Translations under genes and position numbers: made by a program
The notes under the pieces: model-generated
Told to the model about the DNA's origin: nothing
What the model saw: the letters and a program-made list of their open reading frames with translations, nothing else
Database searches by the model: none
DNA from: Natronogracilivirga saccharolytica
GTDB lineage: Bacteria > Bacteroidota > Rhodothermia > Balneolales > Natronogracilivirgulaceae
DNA length: 64,000 nucleotides
Direction: 5' to 3'
Assembly (NCBI RefSeq): GCF_017921895.1
Contig: NZ_JAFIDN010000002.1
Coordinates: 124,001-188,000 of the forward strand
Shown here: piece after piece, positions 49,338-59,937 of the stretch
How positions within the stretch are numbered: position 1 is the stretch's first letter
Layout of the letters: the number at the start of each line of letters is the position of its first letter

Positions 49338-50762
49338 ATGTCAGCTTTTCTTGAATGGTTTGAAAAAATTGCGGTAGCATTTGCCGATGCGGCCTGGGGC
49401 CTTCCCTTGCTGGCCCTGCTCCTCGGAGGGGGTATCTTTTTCCTTATTTTTTCACGGTTTGTACCCTACCGCCACTTTGGGCACGGGCTGGAAATTCTGA
49501 CGGGGAAGTACGAGGATCCAACTGCTCCGGGCGACATCAATCATTTCCAGGCGCTGTCCAGTGCGCTTGCCGCCACGGTAGGGATGGGAAACATTGGCGG
49601 TGTGGCTATCGCGATTGTCATGGGCGGACCCGGTGCCCTGTTCTGGATGTGGATAAGTGCGATCGTGGGGATGGCGACCAAGTTTTTTACGTGTACACTC
49701 GCCGTCATGTACCGGGGCAAGGACACTTCGGGGAAAGTACAGGGCGGACCGATGTACTTCATCACCGAGGGTCTCGGTAAAAAGTGGAAACCGCTTGCCG
49801 TATTTTTTGCCATTGCAGGTCTGATTGGTTGTGCTCCGATGTTTCAGTCCAATCAGCTCACACAAATCGTCCGTGACGAAATCATGATTCCCGCCGGCAT
49901 GGTTGCCGAGCAGGCGACATTCTGGGGCGATTTTACGCTCGGGCTCATTATTGTCGGCGTCGTTTCGCTGGTGATTTTCGGCGGCATTAAGCGGATCGGG
50001 CAGGTCGCTGCCAGCCTTGTACCGCTCATGGTCTTCATTTATGTCGTTTCGGTGCTCTATATTATTCTCAGCAATATCACCGAAGTTCCTTACTATCTGA
50101 CGCTCATCGTAACGGATGCTTTTACCGGTGAGGCTGTTGCCGGAGGAGCCGTCGGTACGGTAATCATCACTGGTATACGCCGCGCTGCGTTTTCAAACGA
50201 AGCGGGAATCGGGCTGGAAGCGATGGCGCACGGAGCGGCAAGGACCCGCGAGCCGGTCAGGGAAGGACTTGTAGCCATGCTTGAACCCCTCATCGATACC
50301 ATCATTGTCTGCAGCATGACCGCTTTGGCCATTCTGATGACAGGTGTCTGGCTGACCACCGACGCCGACGGGGTAACCCTTACTGCCCAGGCATTTTCCG
50401 AGGGAATTCCCTACATCGGCGTCTATGTTCTGATCCTTTGTGTCATCATTTTCAGCATTACCACGATGTTCACCTACTCGTATTACGGCACAAAATGCCT
50501 CGGCTTCCTGCTTGGCGCCGAGCGGCAGCATTACTACAACTACTTCTACATTTTTTCCATACTTCTGGGTTCTGTTGCTTCTATTACGGCAGTCATCAGC
50601 CTGATTGACGGAATGTTTGCAATGATGGCCATCCCGACCATGACGGCCTCCATCCTGCTCTCCCCAAAAGTCTACCGGGCAGCCAAAGACTATTTTCAGC
50701 GCATGCGGGATGAGGAGCTTGCGGGTTATGATGATGACGACGATGATGATGATGATGTGTAG
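49338..50762 (+). CDS. Alanine/glycine:cation symporter (AGCS family)
   Basis: A 474-aa transporter taking up alanine or glycine with Na+. Family signature HFQALSSALAATVGMGNIGGVAIAIVMGGPGALFWMWISAIVGMATKF near residues 55-110; GGPMYFITEGLGKKW and TGIRRAAFSNEAGIGLEAMAHGAART follow. About ten transmembrane helices. The C-terminus is unusual: a run of nine Asp residues before the final Val, encoded by GAT/GAC repeats at 50731..50757. This acidic tail may be a cytosolic charge tag or a result of triplet slippage. The M14 carboxypeptidase gene begins 23 bp later, suggesting peptide or amino acid use together. Confidence 0.9.
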   Translation: MSAFLEWFEKIAVAFADAAWGLPLLALLLGGGIFFLIFSRFVPYRHFGHGLEILTGKYEDPTAPGDINHFQALSSALAATVGMGNIGGVAIAIVMGGPGALFWMWISAIVGMATKFFTCTLAVMYRGKDTSGKVQGGPMYFITEGLGKKWKPLAVFFAIAGLIGCAPMFQSNQLTQIVRDEIMIPAGMVAEQATFWGDFTLGLIIVGVVSLVIFGGIKRIGQVAASLVPLMVFIYVVSVLYIILSNITEVPYYLTLIVTDAFTGEAVAGGAVGTVIITGIRRAAFSNEAGIGLEAMAHGAARTREPVREGLVAMLEPLIDTIIVCSMTALAILMTGVWLTTDADGVTLTAQAFSEGIPYIGVYVLILCVIIFSITTMFTYSYYGTKCLGFLLGAERQHYYNYFYIFSILLGSVASITAVISLIDGMFAMMAIPTMTASILLSPKVYRAAKDYFQRMRDEELAGYDDDDDDDDDV

Positions 50763-50785
50763 TGCTGTTATGTGACTTGTGATAA

Positions 50786-51796
50786 ATGACCCGGACCATC
50801 ACACCCGATCTAATGTGGAACTATGACAGGTTTCTGAAAGAGCTTGACCGGACCCGGCCCAACGTTCATGAAAACGAAATTGGTAGAAGCGAACAGGGGA
50901 AACCGATTTTCGGATTTGTTTTCGGCGAGGGTGACCTGAAGGTGAGTCTTATGGCCGGTGCCCATGCCGATGAGCCGGTTGGTCCGAACACGCTGTACAA
51001 AATGACCCTGGGCATGCTTCAGCATCCCGGAAAGTATCACAGCCTGTTCCGTTCTTTCCGTTTTATCATCATTCCGCATATCAACCCTGATGGCGATCAG
51101 GCCAACAGCGCCTGGATGCACAGATGGCCGGATTTCCCGGCGTACTTTCAGCATGCAAAACGCGAGAAGCCCGGCAGGGACATCGAGTTCGGTTATCCTG
51201 AAATGCGGCCGGAAAACTGTGCAGCGACTGATTTCTGGAACAGTACCGGCGGAGCGGATATCCATTTCAGCCTTCACGGTATGGCATACTCCGAGGGATA
51301 TTTGCTGCTGATTAATGATCAATGGGAGCAGGACACTCGGCCATGGAGGCAAAAGTACGATCGTCAAATGGCCCTGCACGGTTTGCTTCCGCATGATTAT
51401 AACCGCAACGGTGAGAAAGGGTTTAATTATTTCGGCCCGGGATTTTCTTCTACTCCCAAAGGTTCGGCCATGCGGGATTTTTTTCTTCAGAAAGGCGATG
51501 AAGAAACCTCATCCCTGTTCCACGACAGTTCCATGGAGTTCCATCTGAAAATGAATCCGGATGCGCTGTGCATGGTTACGGAGCTGCCGCTTTTCCTTGT
51601 CAACCATTCCGGCAATTCCGAAAAGCCGCTGAACTATCTTGCGCTTAAGGAAGAGCTGGAGGAACTCAGGGGCGCCGGAAAATGGGAGGGTATTGAAAAT
51701 GTGGCAGCCCGGTATGGACTGCGCCCCTTTCCGTTGTCACTTGCCATGATGCTCCAGCGCTATACCATCGGCTCGGCACTGGAGTTGATTCGCTGA
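50786..51796 (+). CDS. M14 family zinc carboxypeptidase-like protein
   Basis: A 336-aa protein with the M14 zinc site: HxxE in MAGAHADEPVGPNTLYK, the conserved Pro-Asp-Gly in IIIPHINPDGDQANS, third ligand His in IHFSLHGMAYSEGYL, and catalytic Glu in CMVTELPLFLVN. No signal peptide, so it is probably cytoplasmic. The N-terminus (TRTITPDLMWNYDRFLKELDRTRPNV) includes the substrate-side helix. It follows the amino acid symporter closely. Its 3' end lies just ahead of the arginine attenuator region. Substrate unknown: peptides, or peptidoglycan or amide-linked compounds. Confidence 0.82.
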   Translation: MTRTITPDLMWNYDRFLKELDRTRPNVHENEIGRSEQGKPIFGFVFGEGDLKVSLMAGAHADEPVGPNTLYKMTLGMLQHPGKYHSLFRSFRFIIIPHINPDGDQANSAWMHRWPDFPAYFQHAKREKPGRDIEFGYPEMRPENCAATDFWNSTGGADIHFSLHGMAYSEGYLLLINDQWEQDTRPWRQKYDRQMALHGLLPHDYNRNGEKGFNYFGPGFSSTPKGSAMRDFFLQKGDEETSSLFHDSSMEFHLKMNPDALCMVTELPLFLVNHSGNSEKPLNYLALKEELEELRGAGKWEGIENVAARYGLRPFPLSLAMMLQRYTIGSALELIR

Positions 51797-51808
51797 AAAA
51801 TCATGCCA

Positions 51809-51839
51809 TTGACATTTTGCCGATTTATTCAGTTCTTTG
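51809..51839 (+). promoter_or_regulatory. Candidate promoter of the arginine leader
   Basis: TTG at 51809..51811 and GTTCTTTG at 51832..51839 are spaced 20 bp apart, fitting a -33 / TAnnTTTG layout with 6 of 8 matches in the -7 element. Transcription would start close to the leader ATG (51845), implying a very short or absent 5' leader before the peptide. Weak on its own. Confidence 0.3.
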
Positions 51840-51844
51840 ATTTC

Positions 51845-51943
51845 ATGTTAATTCAGATCACATATCCGCTAAACGACAGCAATCGCCGTCGTCGCCGTAT
51901 TCGCCGCCGCAGCCCGGACGGTACGTGTGGAGATTGTGTCTGA
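51845..51943 (+). CDS. Arginine-rich leader peptide of the arginine operon (attenuator peptide)
   Basis: A 32-codon ORF from ATG 51845 to TGA 51941..51943, followed by a terminator and then argG. Residues 14-18 and 20-22 are all arginine, interrupted only by Ile19: eight Arg codons (CGC/CGT) within nine codons (51884..51910). The N-terminal part is MLIQITYPLNDSN and the C-terminal part SPDGTCGDCV. No protein family is expected. By analogy with his, trp and leu leader peptides, slow decoding of the Arg run when charged tRNA-Arg is scarce would hold the ribosome just upstream of the RNA segment that forms the antiterminator. The peptide itself probably has no function. No strong Shine-Dalgarno is seen, as is usual for this group. 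Confidence 0.82.
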   Translation: MLIQITYPLNDSNRRRRRIRRRSPDGTCGDCV

Positions 51944-51986
51944 ACAGCAACAGAATGTTTGTAAATCAAAAGGCAGAGTCTTCACG
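51926..51986 (+). promoter_or_regulatory. Antiterminator pairing of the arginine attenuator
   Basis: Segment 51926..51941 (TGTGGAGATTGTGTCT) pairs with 51971..51986 (AGGCAGAGTCTTCACG) at 15 of 16 positions, four of them G-U; the only mismatch is G51936/G51976. The second segment is the 5' arm and loop of the terminator, so the structures exclude each other. The first segment ends at the first base of the leader stop codon. A ribosome at that stop would cover it and let the terminator form; a ribosome held on the Arg run (ending at 51910) leaves it free. Confidence 0.72.
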
Positions 51987-52004
51987 GGTTCTGCCTTTTT
52001 TTTT
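51968..52004 (+). terminator. Attenuator terminator of the arginine operon
   Basis: AAAAGGCAGA at 51968..51977 pairs perfectly with TCTGCCTTTT at 51990..51999, with a 12-nt loop and a T-run to 52004. It lies 25 bp after the Arg-rich leader ORF and about 120 bp before argG. It could also end transcription from the upstream M14 gene. Confidence 0.85.
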
Positions 52005-52123
52005 GGTATTTTCACAGATAACTGATTTGACTTGCCTTGATGCGTGCGGCCTTTGATATCAGCAGTGATGTTGCGACATTACAGGTTCCCTAGTGACGTT
52101 ATAAATCGAATATTTTTAACACA

Positions 52124-53329
52124 ATGAAAAATCAACCCAAAGATCCTATCGTACTGGCTTACAGCGGAGGTTTGGATACCAGTTTCTGCATTCCCTATCT
52201 CAAAGAGAAATTCAAAACGGATATTCATGCCGTGATTGTGGACTGCGTCGGTTTGTCCAGACCGGAAAAAGAAAAGATCCAGAAACGTGCACTCTATCTT
52301 GGTGCGGCCGAATTCGCGTGTGTTGATGGCTTTCCTCCGCTATATGACCGCATTCTCTCTTATCTGATCAAAGGGAATGTGCTGCGTGACCGCACCTATC
52401 CGCTTTGTGTCGGATCCGAACGGTACATTCAGGCGGAAATGATTCTGGAATACGCCAGAGAGCAGGGAACCAGGCGTATTGCCCACGGATCAACCGGAGC
52501 GGGGAACGACCAGGTCCGGTTTGATGTGGCCCTTCAGACGGGCCTTGAAAATGTGGAGATCATCACACCAATACGGGATGAGGGACTCACAAGGGAAGAC
52601 ACCACAGCTTATCTGGCAAAGCGCGGATTTGACATTCCGTCAAAAACGACCTCATACTCCATAAATGAAGGGATCTGGGGAACAAGCATCGGCGGAGCCG
52701 AGACGCTGACCAGCGATCAGGCACTCCCCTTTGAAGCATTTCCCTCACTCAAACCACCGCACGAGCTTGATGATGAACCCGAGGAGTTAACCATTGATTT
52801 TGCCAATGGACTGCCGGTCGCAGTAAACGGTCATCATATGGATGCGTCCGCGCTGCTGGAAGCCTTGCGCGAATTCGGAAGGTATCACGGCATCGGAATG
52901 GGAATGCACCTTGGCGATACCATCCTCGGAATCAAGGGCAGGATAGGATTTGAAGCGCCGGTAGCAGCTATCCTCTATATGGCTCACCGGGAGCTTGAAA
53001 AACTGGTGCTCAGTCAGGACCAGCGCCAGCTCAAGGATAATCTGGCAGACCAGTACGGCGCCATGCTGCACGAAGCAAAGTTTTATGACCCGGTCATGCG
53101 CGATATCGAGAATTTTTTCAACTCAACACAGGCGCGGGTTACCGGTGAGGTAACCCTGTATGCATGCCGAGGCAATCTGTTTCCGCTAAAGGCGGCATCG
53201 TCGCACAGTGTGATGGACAATAAAGTAGCAAGCTATGGAGAAGAAGCCGGCGGTTGGGATGGCAATGAAGCCAGGGCATACTCCAAGCTCTACAGCATTC
53301 GAACACAAATCTATAACAAAACCCGGTAA
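52124..53329 (+). CDS. argG: Argininosuccinate synthase
   Basis: Joins citrulline and aspartate using ATP to give argininosuccinate. The 401-aa protein has the PP-loop IVLAYSGGLDTSFCIPYL at residues 9-26, LCVGSERYIQAEMI, IAHGSTGAGNDQVRFD (substrate loop) and YSINEGIWGTSIGGAE. It is of the form found in Bacteroidota, where argG heads the operon. A 327-bp leader with the attenuator precedes it, and the only strong terminator upstream is the regulated one. The next gene starts 28 bp after the stop. Confidence 0.97.
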   Translation: MKNQPKDPIVLAYSGGLDTSFCIPYLKEKFKTDIHAVIVDCVGLSRPEKEKIQKRALYLGAAEFACVDGFPPLYDRILSYLIKGNVLRDRTYPLCVGSERYIQAEMILEYAREQGTRRIAHGSTGAGNDQVRFDVALQTGLENVEIITPIRDEGLTREDTTAYLAKRGFDIPSKTTSYSINEGIWGTSIGGAETLTSDQALPFEAFPSLKPPHELDDEPEELTIDFANGLPVAVNGHHMDASALLEALREFGRYHGIGMGMHLGDTILGIKGRIGFEAPVAAILYMAHRELEKLVLSQDQRQLKDNLADQYGAMLHEAKFYDPVMRDIENFFNSTQARVTGEVTLYACRGNLFPLKAASSHSVMDNKVASYGEEAGGWDGNEARAYSKLYSIRTQIYNKTR

Positions 53330-53357: not shown

Positions 53358-54434
53358 ATGGGACTTAAAGAAATAAACGCGGACATCATCGCTTCAAGTT
53401 CGGCTTCAGTAAAGCTGGACCAAACGGTGAAGCTGGCACCAAATATTGTAGCTGAGGAAGGATATCTTGTTGCTGTCAAAACACTTGATGTTAAAGATCG
53501 CTATAATAAAATCGAAACCAGCGAGGGTGCCATCATTCCCTACGGAAAAGATCAGATTGTGATCGGGGCCCTTGGAGAAAGACAGGCGCTGCGGGGCTAC
53601 AGCGGTATTATACCCCGTTCCGTCAAGAAGGGGGACACCCTGCACATACTGAATATGGGAGGTATTGTCGGGCATTGCCAGTCGCCCCATCCGGACCACG
53701 GACCCGCCATGCGGGTTGAGGTGCTCGGTGCCGTCATGATTCCGGATGAAGAAGACCAGGGCATGTTCAAACACGCTTGTATCCAGGATTACGCCATAGA
53801 ATGGGAGTATCAGCTCACCGAAAGCGTGCCGCTGATAGCCGTTACCGGAACCTGTATGCATGTGGGGAAAACCATGGCGGCAACCATGATCGTGCGCCAA
53901 TTGGCGGCGCAGGGATACAAGGTCGCCGCTGCCAAGCTCACCGGGGCCTCACTCATGCGGGATACGCGTGAAATGAAGGAAAACGGAGCCATTGCATCCG
54001 CACATTTTGGTATGGCCGGACTCGTGTCCACCACCGGAAAGAATATCCTGCCGATGGCCAAAGGCCTGATCAAACACCTGAACAGTTTTAATCCGGATGC
54101 AATCATTCTGGAGTTTGGGGACGGCATCATCGGAGCGTACGGTGTGGACAGCCTGCTTATGGATAAGGAAATGATGCAGTTCACCCGGACCCATGTGGTT
54201 GCCGCGCAGGATTTCATGGGATGCTGGTCGGCCGATCATTTTTTCCGGAAACGGTACACCAGCGCTATCTCTATCATCACTGGTCCGGTTACCGATAACC
54301 TGGTTGGTGTCCAGTTTATCCAGAACACCCTTGGAATACGCGCTGTGAATGCGGTTGCCGAGCCCCAAAAGCTTGGTGACATGGTATCCGAAATCACTTT
54401 TGCTGCTCCAACAAAAAAAGAGCCGTTCATATGA
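53358..54434 (+). CDS. P-loop NTPase-fold protein of unknown function in the arginine operon
   Basis: A 358-aa protein, placed between argG and argC. The start is the ATG at 53358 (GLKEINADII); an in-frame ATG at 53235 would overlap argG by 95 bp. Residues about 1-150 are a beta-rich domain (GYLVAVKTLDVKDRYNKIE, HILNMGGIVGHCQSPHPDHG). Residues about 165-350 are a nucleotide-binding domain with Walker A VTGTCMHVGKTMAATMI and Walker B-like AIILEFGDGIIGAYG. The loop GTxxxVGKT recalls dethiobiotin synthetase and DUF1611-type SIMIBI enzymes. It occupies the place where an acyltransferase often stands in related operons, but it has no GNAT features. It overlaps argC by ATGA, so coexpression is certain. 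The function is not known to me. Confidence 0.72.
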   Translation: MGLKEINADIIASSSASVKLDQTVKLAPNIVAEEGYLVAVKTLDVKDRYNKIETSEGAIIPYGKDQIVIGALGERQALRGYSGIIPRSVKKGDTLHILNMGGIVGHCQSPHPDHGPAMRVEVLGAVMIPDEEDQGMFKHACIQDYAIEWEYQLTESVPLIAVTGTCMHVGKTMAATMIVRQLAAQGYKVAAAKLTGASLMRDTREMKENGAIASAHFGMAGLVSTTGKNILPMAKGLIKHLNSFNPDAIILEFGDGIIGAYGVDSLLMDKEMMQFTRTHVVAAQDFMGCWSADHFFRKRYTSAISIITGPVTDNLVGVQFIQNTLGIRAVNAVAEPQKLGDMVSEITFAAPTKKEPFI

Positions 54435-55495
54435 GTCAGGAAAAAGCACAAGTATCCGTCGTAGGTGCCAGCGGCTATGCCGGCATGGAGGCTGTACGAA
54501 TCCTTCACGGTCATCCAAACGCAACCATCACCAGACTCTACGGAGCCAGTTCGGCCGGGTCATCCCTGCCCGATCACTATAAAGGAATGGACTCGCTTGT
54601 CGATCTGCCCATTTCCGGGTTTGATGAACTGCAAACGGACAGTTCTGACGCCATCTTCCTGGGACTCCCCCACGGAAAGTCGGCAGAAGTGGTACAGATT
54701 CTGCTCAAAGCCGGATACAAAGGCCGGATCCTTGACATGAGTTCCGACTTCAGACTGAAATCGGCAGAAGCGTATGAGAAATGGTACGGGTGGACCCATC
54801 CCTGTCCGGAAAACATCCCCTCTTTCGTTTATGGTCTGACCGAGTGGTTTCGAAGTGAGATCCGGCTTGCCGGTCACATCACAAATCCGGGTTGCTTTGC
54901 CACAGCCATGCAGCTGGGACTGTTGCCGTTCGTCAAAGAGGGGCTGATTACATCCTGCGATGCCACAGGCATTACTGGATCGTCCGGATCGGGCGCCTCC
55001 CCGTCAGCCGGGACCCATTTTTCAAGCCGTTTCGGAAACGTAAAAGCCTACAAGGTCTACCGTCATCAGCACATCGCAGAAGTGATGCAAAGTGTGGCTG
55101 CAGTCGTTTCCGGTGACGGAAAAGCAGGAGGATCTGCGGATTCCTCCGGGCTGCCGGATGTCCGCTTTGTGCCGGTGTCCGGGCCCTTCGTGCGTGGAAT
55201 CTGGATGACGCTTGCCATGACTCTCAATGAGGAAGCCCATGCCGGAAATCTGCTTGAGGAAGAATATTACAATGCCCCGCTTGTCCGCCTTCAGGAAGGA
55301 CTTCCGGAGCTGAAGCAGGTTGCCGGCAGTGCATTCGCGGATATCGGATGGGTTCAGGACGGACGAAATATCGTAATCGGCGTTGCCATCGACAATCTGA
55401 TGAAGGGCGCCGCCTCGCAGGCTGTGCAAAACTTCAACCTGATGATGGACTGGCCGGAAGAAACGGGCCTGATGTTTCCCCCGACAATATTGTAA
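54431..55495 (+). CDS. argC: N-acyl-gamma-glutamyl-phosphate reductase
   Basis: NADPH-dependent reduction of N-acyl-glutamyl phosphate to the semialdehyde, third step of arginine synthesis. Rossmann loop VSVVGASGYAGMEAVRIL at residues 8-25, LGLPHGKSAEVV, active-site Cys in HITNPGCFATAMQLGLLPF, and the substrate-side block ITGSSGSGASPSAGTHFSSR. The C-terminus (DNLMKGAASQAVQNFNLM) is complete at 354 aa. The start overlaps the upstream P-loop gene by ATGA. Whether the acyl group is acetyl or succinyl depends on the pathway variant. Confidence 0.95.
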   Translation: MSQEKAQVSVVGASGYAGMEAVRILHGHPNATITRLYGASSAGSSLPDHYKGMDSLVDLPISGFDELQTDSSDAIFLGLPHGKSAEVVQILLKAGYKGRILDMSSDFRLKSAEAYEKWYGWTHPCPENIPSFVYGLTEWFRSEIRLAGHITNPGCFATAMQLGLLPFVKEGLITSCDATGITGSSGSGASPSAGTHFSSRFGNVKAYKVYRHQHIAEVMQSVAAVVSGDGKAGGSADSSGLPDVRFVPVSGPFVRGIWMTLAMTLNEEAHAGNLLEEEYYNAPLVRLQEGLPELKQVAGSAFADIGWVQDGRNIVIGVAIDNLMKGAASQAVQNFNLMMDWPEETGLMFPPTIL

Positions 55496-55513
55496 CACTG
55501 AAATCACAGGGTG

Positions 55514-56539
55514 ATGACCTCAGACAACAACAGAAACTTTATTCATTTATCGGACTGGGATGATGACAGCATTTCCGCCATCCTGAAAAAAGCCGGAGCA
55601 TTGAAAGAGCAGGACTTCCGCGATCCGGTGGCCTCGGGAAAGGTGCTGGGGATGATTTTTTTCAATCCGTCCCTGCGGACACGCATCTCTTTTGAAACGG
55701 CGGCATATCATCTTGGCGCCGGTGCGTCCATCATACAACCCGGACAAGGTACGTGGACATTTGAAACACGCCGCGGCGTAATCATGGACGGCAGTCGTAC
55801 CGAGCATCTCAAGGAGGCCGTTCAGGTCATATCCCGCTATGTGGATGTTATTGGCGTGCGGGCATTTGCCGGTATGAAAAACCTTGACGAGGATCTGGAA
55901 GATCGTTTGATGCAGGAAATCGTCCAGTACGCTTCCGTGCCGGTCATCAACATGGAAAGCGCAAGGGAGCATCCCTGCCAGGCGCTTGCTGACGGCCTCA
56001 CCATGATGGAGCACTTTCAGGACAATCCGGCAGGGCGGAAATTTGTGCTGAGCTGGGCTCCGCACCCCAAACCCCTGCCCATGGCTGTTCCCAACAGCGC
56101 TCTCGAAATAGCTGCCCGGCTGGGAATGCAGGTCACCCTTGCCTGTCCGCCCGAAATGAAACTCGATGACCGGGTGCTCGATCCGGTCGGAAAGCATGCT
56201 GAAAAACACGGCAACGAGCTGCGGATAGAACATGATCAGCAAACGGCATTCAAGGACGCCGATGTGGTTTACGGGAAATCCTGGGCCGGGCCGATGGTTT
56301 ATACCGATCCGGAAAAAGAACAGAAGCTGCGAACGGAAACGTACGCCGGATGGACTATTGATGAGGCGCTCATGTCATCCACCCGTGCCGCTGCCTTTAT
56401 GCATTGTCTGCCGGTCAGACGAAATGTCGTGGTTACAGATGGCGTTCTGGACGGAGCCGGCGCGGTGCACATCGATCAGGCCGAAAACCGGATGCATGCC
56501 CAGAAGGCGCTTCTGATGAAACTATGGAACCTGTTTTGA
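55514..56539 (+). CDS. argF': N-acyl-L-ornithine carbamoyltransferase (acetyl-/succinyl-ornithine type)
   Basis: Transfers carbamoyl phosphate to an N-acylated ornithine, as in Xanthomonas (acetyl) and Bacteroides (succinyl). The 341-aa protein has the carbamoyl-phosphate motif FFNPSLRTRISFETAAYHLGAG, GVIMDGSRTEHLKEAV, FAGMKNLDEDLEDR, AREHPCQALADGLTMMEHF, WAPHPKPLPMAVPNSALEIAARLGM and MHCLPVRRNVVVTD. HPKPL is diagnostic for the N-acyl group over ordinary OTCase (HPTQ/DGxGxH types). Position T96 aligns with Glu92 of the acetyl enzyme and Pro90 of the succinyl enzyme. ATG at 55514; a GTG three bases upstream is also in frame. Confidence 0.92.
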   Translation: MTSDNNRNFIHLSDWDDDSISAILKKAGALKEQDFRDPVASGKVLGMIFFNPSLRTRISFETAAYHLGAGASIIQPGQGTWTFETRRGVIMDGSRTEHLKEAVQVISRYVDVIGVRAFAGMKNLDEDLEDRLMQEIVQYASVPVINMESAREHPCQALADGLTMMEHFQDNPAGRKFVLSWAPHPKPLPMAVPNSALEIAARLGMQVTLACPPEMKLDDRVLDPVGKHAEKHGNELRIEHDQQTAFKDADVVYGKSWAGPMVYTDPEKEQKLRTETYAGWTIDEALMSSTRAAAFMHCLPVRRNVVVTDGVLDGAGAVHIDQAENRMHAQKALLMKLWNLF

Positions 56540-56546
56540 GCGACAA

Positions 56547-57341
56547 ATGGATGCAATTGTAATCAAGATCAGCGGCAACGTGGTTGCCGATTTCAATGCG
56601 CTTGGAAATCTGTGCGAATATGTGAAAAAACGGAAGGGAGAAGGCCTCCGTATTGTGATGATACACGGTGGTGGCCGGCAGATTTCCGAGCTCAGCCAGA
56701 GGACGGACGTCCCTGTCCGGCAGGTGGCCGGCCGGCGGATTACCGACGAGGCCACGCGGGAAATCCTGCTTTATACCGTAGGCGGCAGGGCAAACCGGGA
56801 AATTGTCGCATTTTTACGCCGCAACGATATTCCGTCAGTGGGGATATCGGGTATAGACGGCGGACTCACCACGGCGCACCGGCGTCCGCCGATGGATATC
56901 GATGGCAATCCGGTGGATTTCGGGCTGGTAGGCGAGATCGACAGCGTTGACACAAAACTGCTTGAGCATCTGACGGACGGGGGATTTCTGCCGGTCGTAG
57001 GGTGCCTGACCTACTCAGAAGATGACGGTATTTTGAACATAAACGCTGATACCTTTGCCATCCGGATATCACTGGCATTGCAGGTCCGCGAGCTGGTTAT
57101 GCTGATGGATCCGCCGGCCGTCCTGGATGCCCGGAAAAAACCCATCGACACCATGAACCGCCGGGACTGGCAGCGCGGGCTGGAAGAGGGATGGATTACC
57201 GACGGAATGAAGCCGAAACTGCTCACCGCATTTGAGGCACTTGACAACGGAGTGCAATCGGTGCTTCTGACAAATGCCGGCACGCTGGCCGCCGGCGGCG
57301 GAACGCGGCTGGTGGCCGATGACAAAGAAACCCAATCCTGA
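56547..57341 (+). CDS. argB: N-acylglutamate kinase
   Basis: Phosphorylates N-acetyl- (or N-succinyl-) glutamate. The 264-aa amino acid kinase fold shows AIVIKISGNVVAD, the glycine loop IVMIHGGGRQISELSQRT, RRITDEATREILLYTVGG and GILNINADTFAIRISLA with the catalytic Asp. The substrate loop reads VPVRQVAGRRITD. Arginine feedback residues of the hexameric ArgB form cannot be judged. It starts 7 bp after argF' and its stop overlaps argE (TGATG). Confidence 0.94.
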   Translation: MDAIVIKISGNVVADFNALGNLCEYVKKRKGEGLRIVMIHGGGRQISELSQRTDVPVRQVAGRRITDEATREILLYTVGGRANREIVAFLRRNDIPSVGISGIDGGLTTAHRRPPMDIDGNPVDFGLVGEIDSVDTKLLEHLTDGGFLPVVGCLTYSEDDGILNINADTFAIRISLALQVRELVMLMDPPAVLDARKKPIDTMNRRDWQRGLEEGWITDGMKPKLLTAFEALDNGVQSVLLTNAGTLAAGGGTRLVADDKETQS

Positions 57342-58450
57342 TGCAAAAAATCACGGACATACCGGTAACAGAATTGCTCTTTGAGCTGATACGTTTTCCC
57401 AGCCTGAGTACTCAGGAGGCGGACCTTGCCGACTGGCTGGAAGAAAAAGTGTCGGAAACCGGGCTGTTTCAGACAGAGCGCCATGGTGATAACCTGATTT
57501 TCCACCTCGGCTCGGGAAGACCCTGGCTGCTGCTCAATTCCCACTCGGATGTCGTACCGCCGTCGGCCCGGCATGCCGGTGCACCGTTTGAACCGGTTCT
57601 GAAAAACGGCCGCATTTACGGCAGAGGCAGCACGGATGCTAAAGGTTCGGTCAGCTGTATGCTTATGGCCCTGATGAACCTGGCACGATCAGGCTATGAG
57701 CCGCCCGGACGGGTAAGTTTTGCCCTGACGGTGTGCGAAGAAAGTGCCGGACATAATAACGGGATGGCATTTCTCAGAAGCAAAATCAACAAGCCCGATG
57801 CAGCACTCGTAGGGGAGCCCACTCTGCTCCACCCGTGCGCAGCACAAAAAGGATTGCTGATTCTGAAGCTGGATGCCGAAGGAGAGGCGGGGCACGCCGC
57901 GCGGGTGAGCGGTCCCAATGCGATTTACGAAATGTCATCGGCCCTCGAAAAGCTCAAAACCATCCGTTTTCAGGAAGAAAATCCGTTCATCGGAAGCACC
58001 CGGATCACTCCGACGACGATCGAAGGTGGTACGGCAAAAAATGCCCATCCGGATTCGTGCTCTGTTTTTCTGGACATCCGCACCATCCCGGAAGTCCCCA
58101 ACGATCTGATTATCGATCGCCTCCGTGCTGATCTGGAAGTATCGGTTTCGGTATACAGCGACCGTTTTGTTTCCACGAGTACCGATCCCGGACACCCCGT
58201 TGCCCGGGCAGCGAAAGATGTGACCGGATTTGACTTTTTCGGATCACCGACGACATCCGACTGGGTGTTTCTGGCAGATGTGCCAACGATAAAAATCGGG
58301 CCGGGTGACAGCCGCGACTCGCATACGGCCAATGAGTCAATTGATGTGCATCAGCTCGAAGCCGGTGTGCCGGCATACGAAAACATCATCCGCGGGTATT
58401 TTGAATTGATCGAATCACAACAGGAACGTACCAACGCTGATATGAAATGA
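57341..58450 (+). CDS. argE: M20-family deacylase, ArgE-like
   Basis: Releases the acyl group from N-acylcitrulline or N-acylornithine in the arginine pathway. 369 aa. Metal ligands are visible in LLNSHSDVVPPS (His/Asp), GRGSTDAKGSVSCMLMALMNL (Asp), TVCEESAGHNNGM (catalytic Glu-Glu), LVGEPT and DSRDSHTANESIDV (His). In the N-acyl-ornithine variant the enzyme acts on N-acylcitrulline after the transcarbamylase. The start codon overlaps the argB stop. A gap of 92 bp precedes argH. Confidence 0.88.
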   Translation: MQKITDIPVTELLFELIRFPSLSTQEADLADWLEEKVSETGLFQTERHGDNLIFHLGSGRPWLLLNSHSDVVPPSARHAGAPFEPVLKNGRIYGRGSTDAKGSVSCMLMALMNLARSGYEPPGRVSFALTVCEESAGHNNGMAFLRSKINKPDAALVGEPTLLHPCAAQKGLLILKLDAEGEAGHAARVSGPNAIYEMSSALEKLKTIRFQEENPFIGSTRITPTTIEGGTAKNAHPDSCSVFLDIRTIPEVPNDLIIDRLRADLEVSVSVYSDRFVSTSTDPGHPVARAAKDVTGFDFFGSPTTSDWVFLADVPTIKIGPGDSRDSHTANESIDVHQLEAGVPAYENIIRGYFELIESQQERTNADMK

Positions 58451-58542: not shown

Positions 58543-59937
58543 ATGCAAACGCTGTGGCAGAAAAAACACCCGGAATCGGGCCCCGGATCGCAGTCAGCTG
58601 CAGACCGCACCTGGTTCTATCGCTTCACGGCTGAAGAAGACCGCGAACTGGACCGGCAGCTCATACCGTATGACATACTGGTGAATCTGGCGCAGGCCCG
58701 GATGCTCAGGAAAATCGATGTGTACAGTGAGGATGGCTACAGGAAAGTTTTTGAGGCACTTCAGGAGGCATGGAATCTGTGGGCGGACGGACAGCTGGAT
58801 CTGGGTCAGGATGATGAGGATGTGCACTCGGCTACGGAGAAATTTGTGACGCAAAAAGCCGGACAGGACGGCGCGCGCATCCACACAGGCCGCTCGCGCA
58901 ACGACCAGGTGCTTGCCGATATGCGGATGTACATGAAAGATGCCATTTGTGATATCACCGGTGAGTGGATAGCCATCACAGAAAGACTGAAATCTCTTGC
59001 CGGGACCTATCAGGCGTTGTTTTTTGCCGGGCTGACGCACACCCAGCCGGCCATGCCCCACTCGGCTGATGCCTGGGCGACCGGGTATATGGATCTTTTC
59101 CTGTCAGACATTGCCGCGTTGCAGGAAGCTTACCGGCTTGCAGATCAGTCCCCGCTGGGCAGCGCGGCAGGATATGGCGTGCCGTATATTCCCGTCGACC
59201 GGCAGCTGCTGGCCGATGAGCTTGGCTTTGAGAGAGTTCAGCAGCCGGTTGCGGCGTCGCAGCTCTCGAGAGGGCGCATCGAGATGCAGCTTGTCGATGC
59301 ACTGGCCTACGGCGCCCTGACATGCAACCGCATGGCATCGGATGTTGTTCTGTTTATGCATCCCTCCTGGGCGCTTGTCACACTCAGCGAGGATCAGGTT
59401 TCGGGCAGCAGCATCATGCCCCAGAAGCGGAATCCGGATGCATGGGAGCTGATCCGGGGCGCATATCACGACTTCCAGGCTGCAAGAGCCCATCTTGCTG
59501 CGGTTCCGGCCAACCTGTCATCCGGATATCATCGTGATCTGCAGGTTGTGAAAAAAACGGTTATGGCGGCTGTGGAGAATTCGCGGCTGCTTGCGGAGGC
59601 GGTCAGAAAGGCGCTTGACGGACTGGAATTCAACCGTGAGGCGGCCTCCCGTACTCTCACTGCGGAAATATATGCCACGCACCATGCCAACAAGCAGGTA
59701 TCTGAAGGTGTGCCTTTCCGCGAAGCGTACCGGAATGTCGCCGAAATGATCGGTGAAGGTGAAAGCGGGATGGATTCCGGGCAGCTGGCCGAAAGTTACC
59801 GGCACAGTGGCGCTCCGGGTTCCGGGGTTTCGGGTCACGCTGTGAAACAGATGGAGCAGGCTGCAGCGTGGGCCGGTCAGAAGCGCAGACATTCGGAAGA
59901 GGTGAAAAAGCGCCTTCTTGGCGGCAGCTCTGCATAA
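58543..59937 (+). CDS. argH: Argininosuccinate lyase
   Basis: Splits argininosuccinate into arginine and fumarate, the last step. The 464-aa protein keeps RIHTGRSRNDQVLADMRMY, AGLTHTQPAMPHSADAWATGY and the signature GSSIMPQKRNPDAWELIRG, with the flexible loop Ser. The N-terminal TWFYRFTAEEDRELDRQLIPYDI is usual for Bacteroidota ArgH. The ATG at 58543 is preceded by an AT-rich 90-bp spacer that may carry a weak internal promoter. It ends the recognisable arginine operon; argD and the acyl-transfer step are not included. Confidence 0.96.
   Translation: MQTLWQKKHPESGPGSQSAADRTWFYRFTAEEDRELDRQLIPYDILVNLAQARMLRKIDVYSEDGYRKVFEALQEAWNLWADGQLDLGQDDEDVHSATEKFVTQKAGQDGARIHTGRSRNDQVLADMRMYMKDAICDITGEWIAITERLKSLAGTYQALFFAGLTHTQPAMPHSADAWATGYMDLFLSDIAALQEAYRLADQSPLGSAAGYGVPYIPVDRQLLADELGFERVQQPVAASQLSRGRIEMQLVDALAYGALTCNRMASDVVLFMHPSWALVTLSEDQVSGSSIMPQKRNPDAWELIRGAYHDFQAARAHLAAVPANLSSGYHRDLQVVKKTVMAAVENSRLLAEAVRKALDGLEFNREAASRTLTAEIYATHHANKQVSEGVPFREAYRNVAEMIGEGESGMDSGQLAESYRHSGAPGSGVSGHAVKQMEQAAAWAGQKRRHSEEVKKRLLGGSSA

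Follow-up and report, generated by a model that had tools for sequence, protein, structure and literature searches.

The window, a 64,000-nucleotide stretch of the 3.75-Mb genome of Natronogracilivirga saccharolytica, contains an arginine biosynthesis operon, argG-argC-argF'-argB-argE-argH, that lies behind a short ORF rich in arginine codons, as a preliminary description of this DNA had claimed. Relatives of its argG at 81-86% identity were found in Balneolales/Balneolaceae bacteria, including strain ANBcel3, and none was found in viral contigs. The features of the locus are as follows.

51809..51839, + strand: predicted promoter, with TTGACA at 51809..51814 and a -7/-10-like element, GTTCTTTG, at 51832..51839
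51845..51943, + strand: leader peptide ORF, 32 codons from ATG to TGA, encoding MLIQITYPLNDSNRRRRRIRRRSPDGTCGDCV
51852..51869, + strand: strand 1, pairing with strand 2 when the leader is untranslated (a predicted anti-antiterminator or pause-type hairpin, based on the MFE fold)
51884..51910, + strand: control codons, CGC CGT CGT CGC CGT ATT CGC CGC CGC, eight of the nine encoding Arg
51926..51941, + strand: strand 2, forming the 5' side of the antiterminator; its end falls on the leader stop codon, and it pairs at 15 of 16 positions with 51971..51986
51968..51986, + strand: strand 3, common to the antiterminator (51971..51986) and the terminator 5' arm (51968..51981)
51986..52004, + strand: strand 4, the terminator 3' arm and T-run
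52124..53329, + strand: argG, argininosuccinate synthase, first gene of the operon (TIGR00032, above cut-off)
53358..54434, + strand: conserved P-loop protein, second gene of the operon (weak CbiA/BioD-type nucleotide-binding matches only)
54431..55495, + strand: argC (TIGR01850, above cut-off)
55511..56539, + strand: N-acetylornithine carbamoyltransferase, argF' (NF003384, above cut-off)
56547..57341, + strand: argB, acetylglutamate kinase (TIGR00761, above cut-off)
57341..58450, + strand: ArgE/DapE-type deacylase of the M20 type (profile matches)
58543..59937, + strand: argH, argininosuccinate lyase (best match TIGR00838, just under cut-off)

The P-loop gene (53358..54434) adjoins argG in relatives too. 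Directly upstream, and in the same direction as argG, are genes for an AgcS-type amino acid carrier and an M14-type carboxypeptidase (49338..51796), which could supply amino acids.

Translation of 51845..51943 returned the 32-codon ORF, with Arg at eight of nine consecutive codons. No other nine-codon stretch on either strand of the window had as many as seven Arg codons, except for the reverse-complement echo of the leader itself, and 40 order-1 Markov shuffles of the window gave a mean of 0.1 stretches with at least seven Arg codons and none with eight. When the window was scanned generically for ORFs with an amino-acid run adjoining terminators, the leader before argG was the sole site returned. 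Further downstream, strand 2 pairs with 51971..51986 at 15 of 16 positions, with four G.U pairs counted and one mismatch, and the terminator at 51968..52004 (AAAAGGCAGA...TCTGCCTTTT) comprises 10 Watson-Crick pairs, or 14 with G.U pairs, closing a TCAC loop and followed by the T-run. The leader stop codon (51941..51943) overlaps the end of strand 2, and 15 nt separate the last Arg codon from strand 2. This spacing suits a stalled ribosome leaving strand 2 free and a ribosome at the stop codon covering it, the size of the footprint being general knowledge. Hence the ORF, the 15/16 pairing, the perfect 10-bp terminator, the overlap of the stop codon with the first antiterminator strand, and the order of parts from leader through mutually exclusive antiterminator and terminator to the argG operon, all put forward in the preliminary description, were confirmed in every part by translation, pair counts, and coordinates.

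Folding of 51845..52010, the check that had been proposed, gave an MFE of -52.7 kcal/mol (z -2.58) and a structure containing the terminator. The same fold held a third pairing, absent from the preliminary description, between the start of the ORF (51852..51869) and strand 2. Compared with shuffles, this 1:2 duplex was the stronger for the window and for most leaders of its family (f1), and it was also good in leader L016; no such excess over shuffles was detected in the leaders of families f5, g7, and f2. In f5 and g7 leaders, the pairing partner of strand 2 is instead the Arg run. With moderate confidence, we assign the 1:2 pairing to the state without translation. A T-box or known riboswitch was rejected, since Rfam returned no match for the leader region either at gathering or at E <= 1.

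We compared the window with 24 Balneolales genomes, namely those with an ArgG at least 53% identical to its own, and found the Arg-run ORF, the antiterminator strand, and the terminator before argG in 22, spanning the window's family (f1) and the families f2, f4, and f5. The Arg-run ORF, whose presence upstream of related argG genes had been proposed as a check, is therefore there in the window's family and its neighbours. One f5 leader (L019, genome G035) retained the antiterminator and terminator and had lost the Arg run, its peptide having one Arg, possibly through decay of the sensor or altered control, and a further Balneolales relative (L023) had a weak Arg run only. No such leader was found in the argG upstream regions examined in f3, a large Balneolaceae-like family whose ArgG is different and whose argG is preceded by an acetyltransferase-like gene, nor before argG in genomes with a 30%-identity ArgG.

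Among 11 f1 leaders, six anchored Arg codons differed at rates of 0.000, 0.000, and 0.394 at codon positions 1, 2, and 3, and the five codons of strand 2, mostly TGT GAA GAT TGT GTC, at 0.073, 0.036, and 0.036. Spacer codons drifted at every position (0.43-0.52), as did the N-terminal codons, the position differences of spacer and N-terminus together being 0.43-0.63. The Arg run, fixed at positions 1 and 2, is thus held as codons, and strand 2, fixed even at position 3, is held as RNA; the control codons are accordingly under selection as part of a translated frame. In the f5 leader L017, the stop codon precedes strand 2, so the strand-2 RNA lies wholly outside the ORF.

Both helices covaried. 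In an alignment of 23 leaders (A1), 93.9% of cells in the antiterminator helix were paired, compared with at most 54.9% for slid versions, and the exchanges included AU to GC, UA to AU, and UA to CG; the terminator helix had 96.7% of cells paired and double changes at 6 pairs. Double-change cells numbered 11 versus 4.0 in shuffles for the antiterminator and 16 versus 3.9 for the terminator, neither value being reached in 500 shuffles, where the relatedness of the leaders limits what shuffles prove and the slide control retains that relatedness. The compensatory changes that had been suggested as a check were thus found in both pairings. A covariance model (R1) built from the 23 leaders and run on 98 relatives and 395 genomes of the phylum scored Balneolales members at 61 bits or above and everything else at 46 bits or below. 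Most of the weaker matches were plain terminators, and the best outside match, at 46 bits before carA, was rejected as the coding end and terminator of rplQ. R1 did not detect leaders in other families of the class, which came instead from argG upstream regions.

A simpler reading is that the hairpin is just the terminator of the upstream carboxypeptidase gene (50786..51796), that argG has a promoter of its own further downstream, and that the Arg-rich ORF is accidental. The carboxypeptidase gene is indeed codirectional and stops 170 bases short of the hairpin, and 120 bases lie between hairpin and argG. However, in f5 the upstream gene diverges from argG, with a QueG-like start on the other strand, and leader and terminator are still kept; a plain terminator would moreover need no strand 2, which covaries with the terminator arm, and would not account for codon-level selection on the Arg codons. 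Given that the hairpin is retained where the neighbour is divergent, we rejected this reading and give it almost no credence.

Beyond Balneolales, in families of the class that are presumably Rhodothermales, 58 argG loci were sampled and 43 of them had the same device before argG. In a first sample, an automatic rule (a terminator and an ATG ORF with at least four Arg) was satisfied at 28 of 39 loci, and among controls by none of 190 reverse-strand and one of 585 shuffled sequences; in a second sample, leaders were found at 15 of 19 argG loci, all the misses belonging to family f13. Outside the class, 0 of 19 argG loci had a leader. Leaders outside Balneolales followed the same plan in a different sequence, for example MTTQTVHTTRARRRARRERRIRTRMDGIDALGTMA before AGGCGTTGGTTCC...GGAGCCGACGCC. 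Leaders paired best with the terminator arm of their own locus: pairing of each strand-2 region with that arm summed to -1190 kcal/mol versus -863 +/- 27.5 for permuted arms (0 of 5000 permutations), an excess that stems partly from closely related sequences; with foreign arms as the comparison, the mean z per family was negative in 17 of 18 families. The antiterminator was weak in families f7, f16, f17, and f19.

These comparisons also bear on a rival in which the signal would be a ligand, free arginine or some other molecule, detected by the nascent peptide instead of tRNA charging, as with TnaC or the fungal arginine attenuator peptide. An Arg-rich nascent peptide could contact the exit tunnel, but its sequence is unconserved outside the Arg run, as the spacer and N-terminal differences show, and peptides of the other families have the Arg run alone in common. 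The direction is also wrong, because a stall would lead to readthrough, and a stall on free arginine would raise biosynthesis at times of plenty. Peptide sensing of free arginine was therefore rejected for lack of peptide conservation beyond the Arg run and for its sign, and is scarcely credible here.

A restricted codon set was used in the Arg runs, CGU, CGC, and CGA making up 126 of the 138 Arg codons of the runs in Balneolales leaders and 188 of the 196 elsewhere in the class. The most frequent Arg codon in eight window genes was CGG. Normally, CGU, CGC, and CGA are decoded by a single tRNA-Arg with the anticodon ICG, and because the Arg runs consist almost entirely of this set, the leader may sense a single isoacceptor. 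Outside Balneolales (L134-L214), CGA was the dominant codon, accounting for 106 of 196 Arg-run codons in GC-rich sequence, where CGC or CGG would be expected. Inosine anticodons decode CGA slowly, which may raise the sensitivity of these leaders.

Upstream of the leader, a TTG hexamer was found 35-40 nt 5' of the leader AUG in 22 of 22 Balneolales leaders, and across 66 leaders the combined -35/-10 score was 8.4 of 12, whereas shuffles gave 6.4 and never more than 6.6; the -10 element ended a median of 8 nt before the leader AUG. In f1 leaders, the -10 element was not of the TATAAT type, and a consensus promoter scan of the single window did not list the promoter at 51809..51839. This geometry predicts leaderless transcripts, probably beginning on the leader AUG or only a few bases from it.

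ArgR is the usual arginine repressor. We found no match to ArgR (PF02863) in the window's genome, in 41 of 41 genomes in a first search of relatives, or in 195 of 196 genomes of the class, with 8 of 14 control genomes matching. The window's genome accordingly lacks the repressor gene that an ArgR-controlled operon would need. The sole ArgR genome among the 196 (G482, locus L175) encodes argR directly upstream of argG (bases ~500-960) and has no Arg leader, possibly a natural swap of the RNA device for a protein repressor or the reverse. Genomes of f3 and those with a 30%-identity ArgG (L031-L061) had neither ArgR nor an Arg leader. Conservation of the leader across the class, together with the near loss of ArgR, suggests that arginine is sensed via ribosome stalling.

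Taken together, the conservation of the Arg run, the compensatory changes, and the absence of ArgR support the preliminary description's claim of a ribosome-mediated arginine attenuator before the arg operon. We put the probability that the locus belongs to a class-wide, arginine-specific family of classical ribosome-mediated transcription attenuators, a reading built from sequence comparison, at roughly 0.93. Expression of the operon would then very probably be set by the charging of tRNA-Arg, perhaps of the one tRNA reading CGU, CGC, and CGA, and would respond to arginine. RNA polymerase would start at or next to the leader AUG, with a ribosome following. When Arg-tRNA is ample, the ribosome would pass the eight Arg codons, reach the stop codon at 51941..51943, and cover strand 2, whereupon strand 3 would pair with strand 4, form the terminator, and end transcription near 52004. 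When Arg-tRNA is short, the ribosome would stall on 51884..51910 with its leading edge just short of strand 2, which the 15-nt spacing would leave free to pair with strand 3; this pairing would block the terminator, and argG and the downstream genes would be transcribed. If the leader is not translated, strand 1 could hold strand 2, making termination the default, a state best supported in the window's family.

The same parts might instead, as at Salmonella speF orf34, exert their main effect on RNA stability, on argG translation, or through Rho-dependent termination; leader ORFs with Arg codons can work in such ways (PMC6386406, PMC13009471). Against this, covariation maintains a strong intrinsic terminator with a T-run in all confirmed Balneolales members, and the antiterminator uses the 5' arm of that terminator as its partner. 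The distance to argG also differs widely between leaders (about 30 to 250 bases), which makes direct occlusion of the argG start less likely. We consider such a main effect very unlikely.

On the transcription attenuator reading, we lean, with rather more confidence for than against, toward an ancestral event in which Rhodothermia (Balneolales and Rhodothermales) replaced ArgR with a leaderless, ribosome-mediated attenuator before argG that reads one tRNA-Arg isoacceptor. If so, and we hold this together with the ancestral replacement at the same leaning strength, classical attenuation would here be known for the first time at an arginine biosynthesis operon. In open-access full-text literature, we found no attenuator of arginine biosynthesis and none in Balneolota, so the novelty proposed earlier for Balneolota/Rhodothermota met no prior report there; the status of first arginine-biosynthesis attenuator is provisional, its literature basis being open-access full text. 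With the device spread class-wide in genomes without ArgR, and the sole genome with argR next to argG lacking the leader, ArgR and the leader would be a clear-cut example of a protein regulator and an RNA regulator taking each other's place. The approximately 65 leaders (22 from Balneolales and 43 from other families) form a natural series for the study of attenuation on leaderless mRNA and of isoacceptor choice.

Classical attenuators include those of trp and his in Escherichia coli and Salmonella, and of leu, thr, phe, and ilv in Proteobacteria. ArgR/AhrC-type control acts on the same genes in response to the same signal as the arg leader would, but through a DNA-binding protein repressor. 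Attenuators of trp are also described in Actinobacteria (PMC1262725), and the theory of classical attenuation has been set out (PMC1183508). The 2005 survey of Actinobacteria reported no RNA element before arginine operons, mentioning arginine for T-boxes only, and described related cys leaders without the classical terminator and antiterminator parts (PMC1262725). In Mycobacterium, the polycysteine uORFs (Canestrari et al. 2020, as cited in PMC9031893) are short and leaderless, as predicted for the arg leader, and have a codon run for the amino acid that the operon makes, but concern cysteine and Actinobacteria. Salmonella speF orf34 senses arginine by consecutive Arg codons followed by alternative RNA structures; it differs in having two Arg codons, in controlling ornithine decarboxylase rather than arginine synthesis, and in acting via Rho, RNase G, and translation without an intrinsic terminator (PMC6386406). 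In Staphylococcus aureus rbfL, leader-ORF Arg codons report tRNA-Arg charging, but the outcome is translational occlusion of a biofilm regulator, with the opposite sign and AGA/AGG codons (PMC13009471). The closest likeness of the arg leader is to the classical attenuators, with which it shares a run of control codons for the end product, a stop codon bordering strand 2, 2:3 and 3:4 helices that exclude each other, and an intrinsic terminator, its geometry being the same as that of trp and his; a 1:2 helix is predicted in many members. Unlike in those systems, where it lies over the control codons, strand 1 of the arg leader in f1 and f4 is at the very 5' end and precedes them. What appears to be new is the specificity for arginine, the occurrence in Balneolota/Rhodothermota, and the predicted leaderless start, in a leader whose defining features appear to be those of an ordinary classical attenuator.
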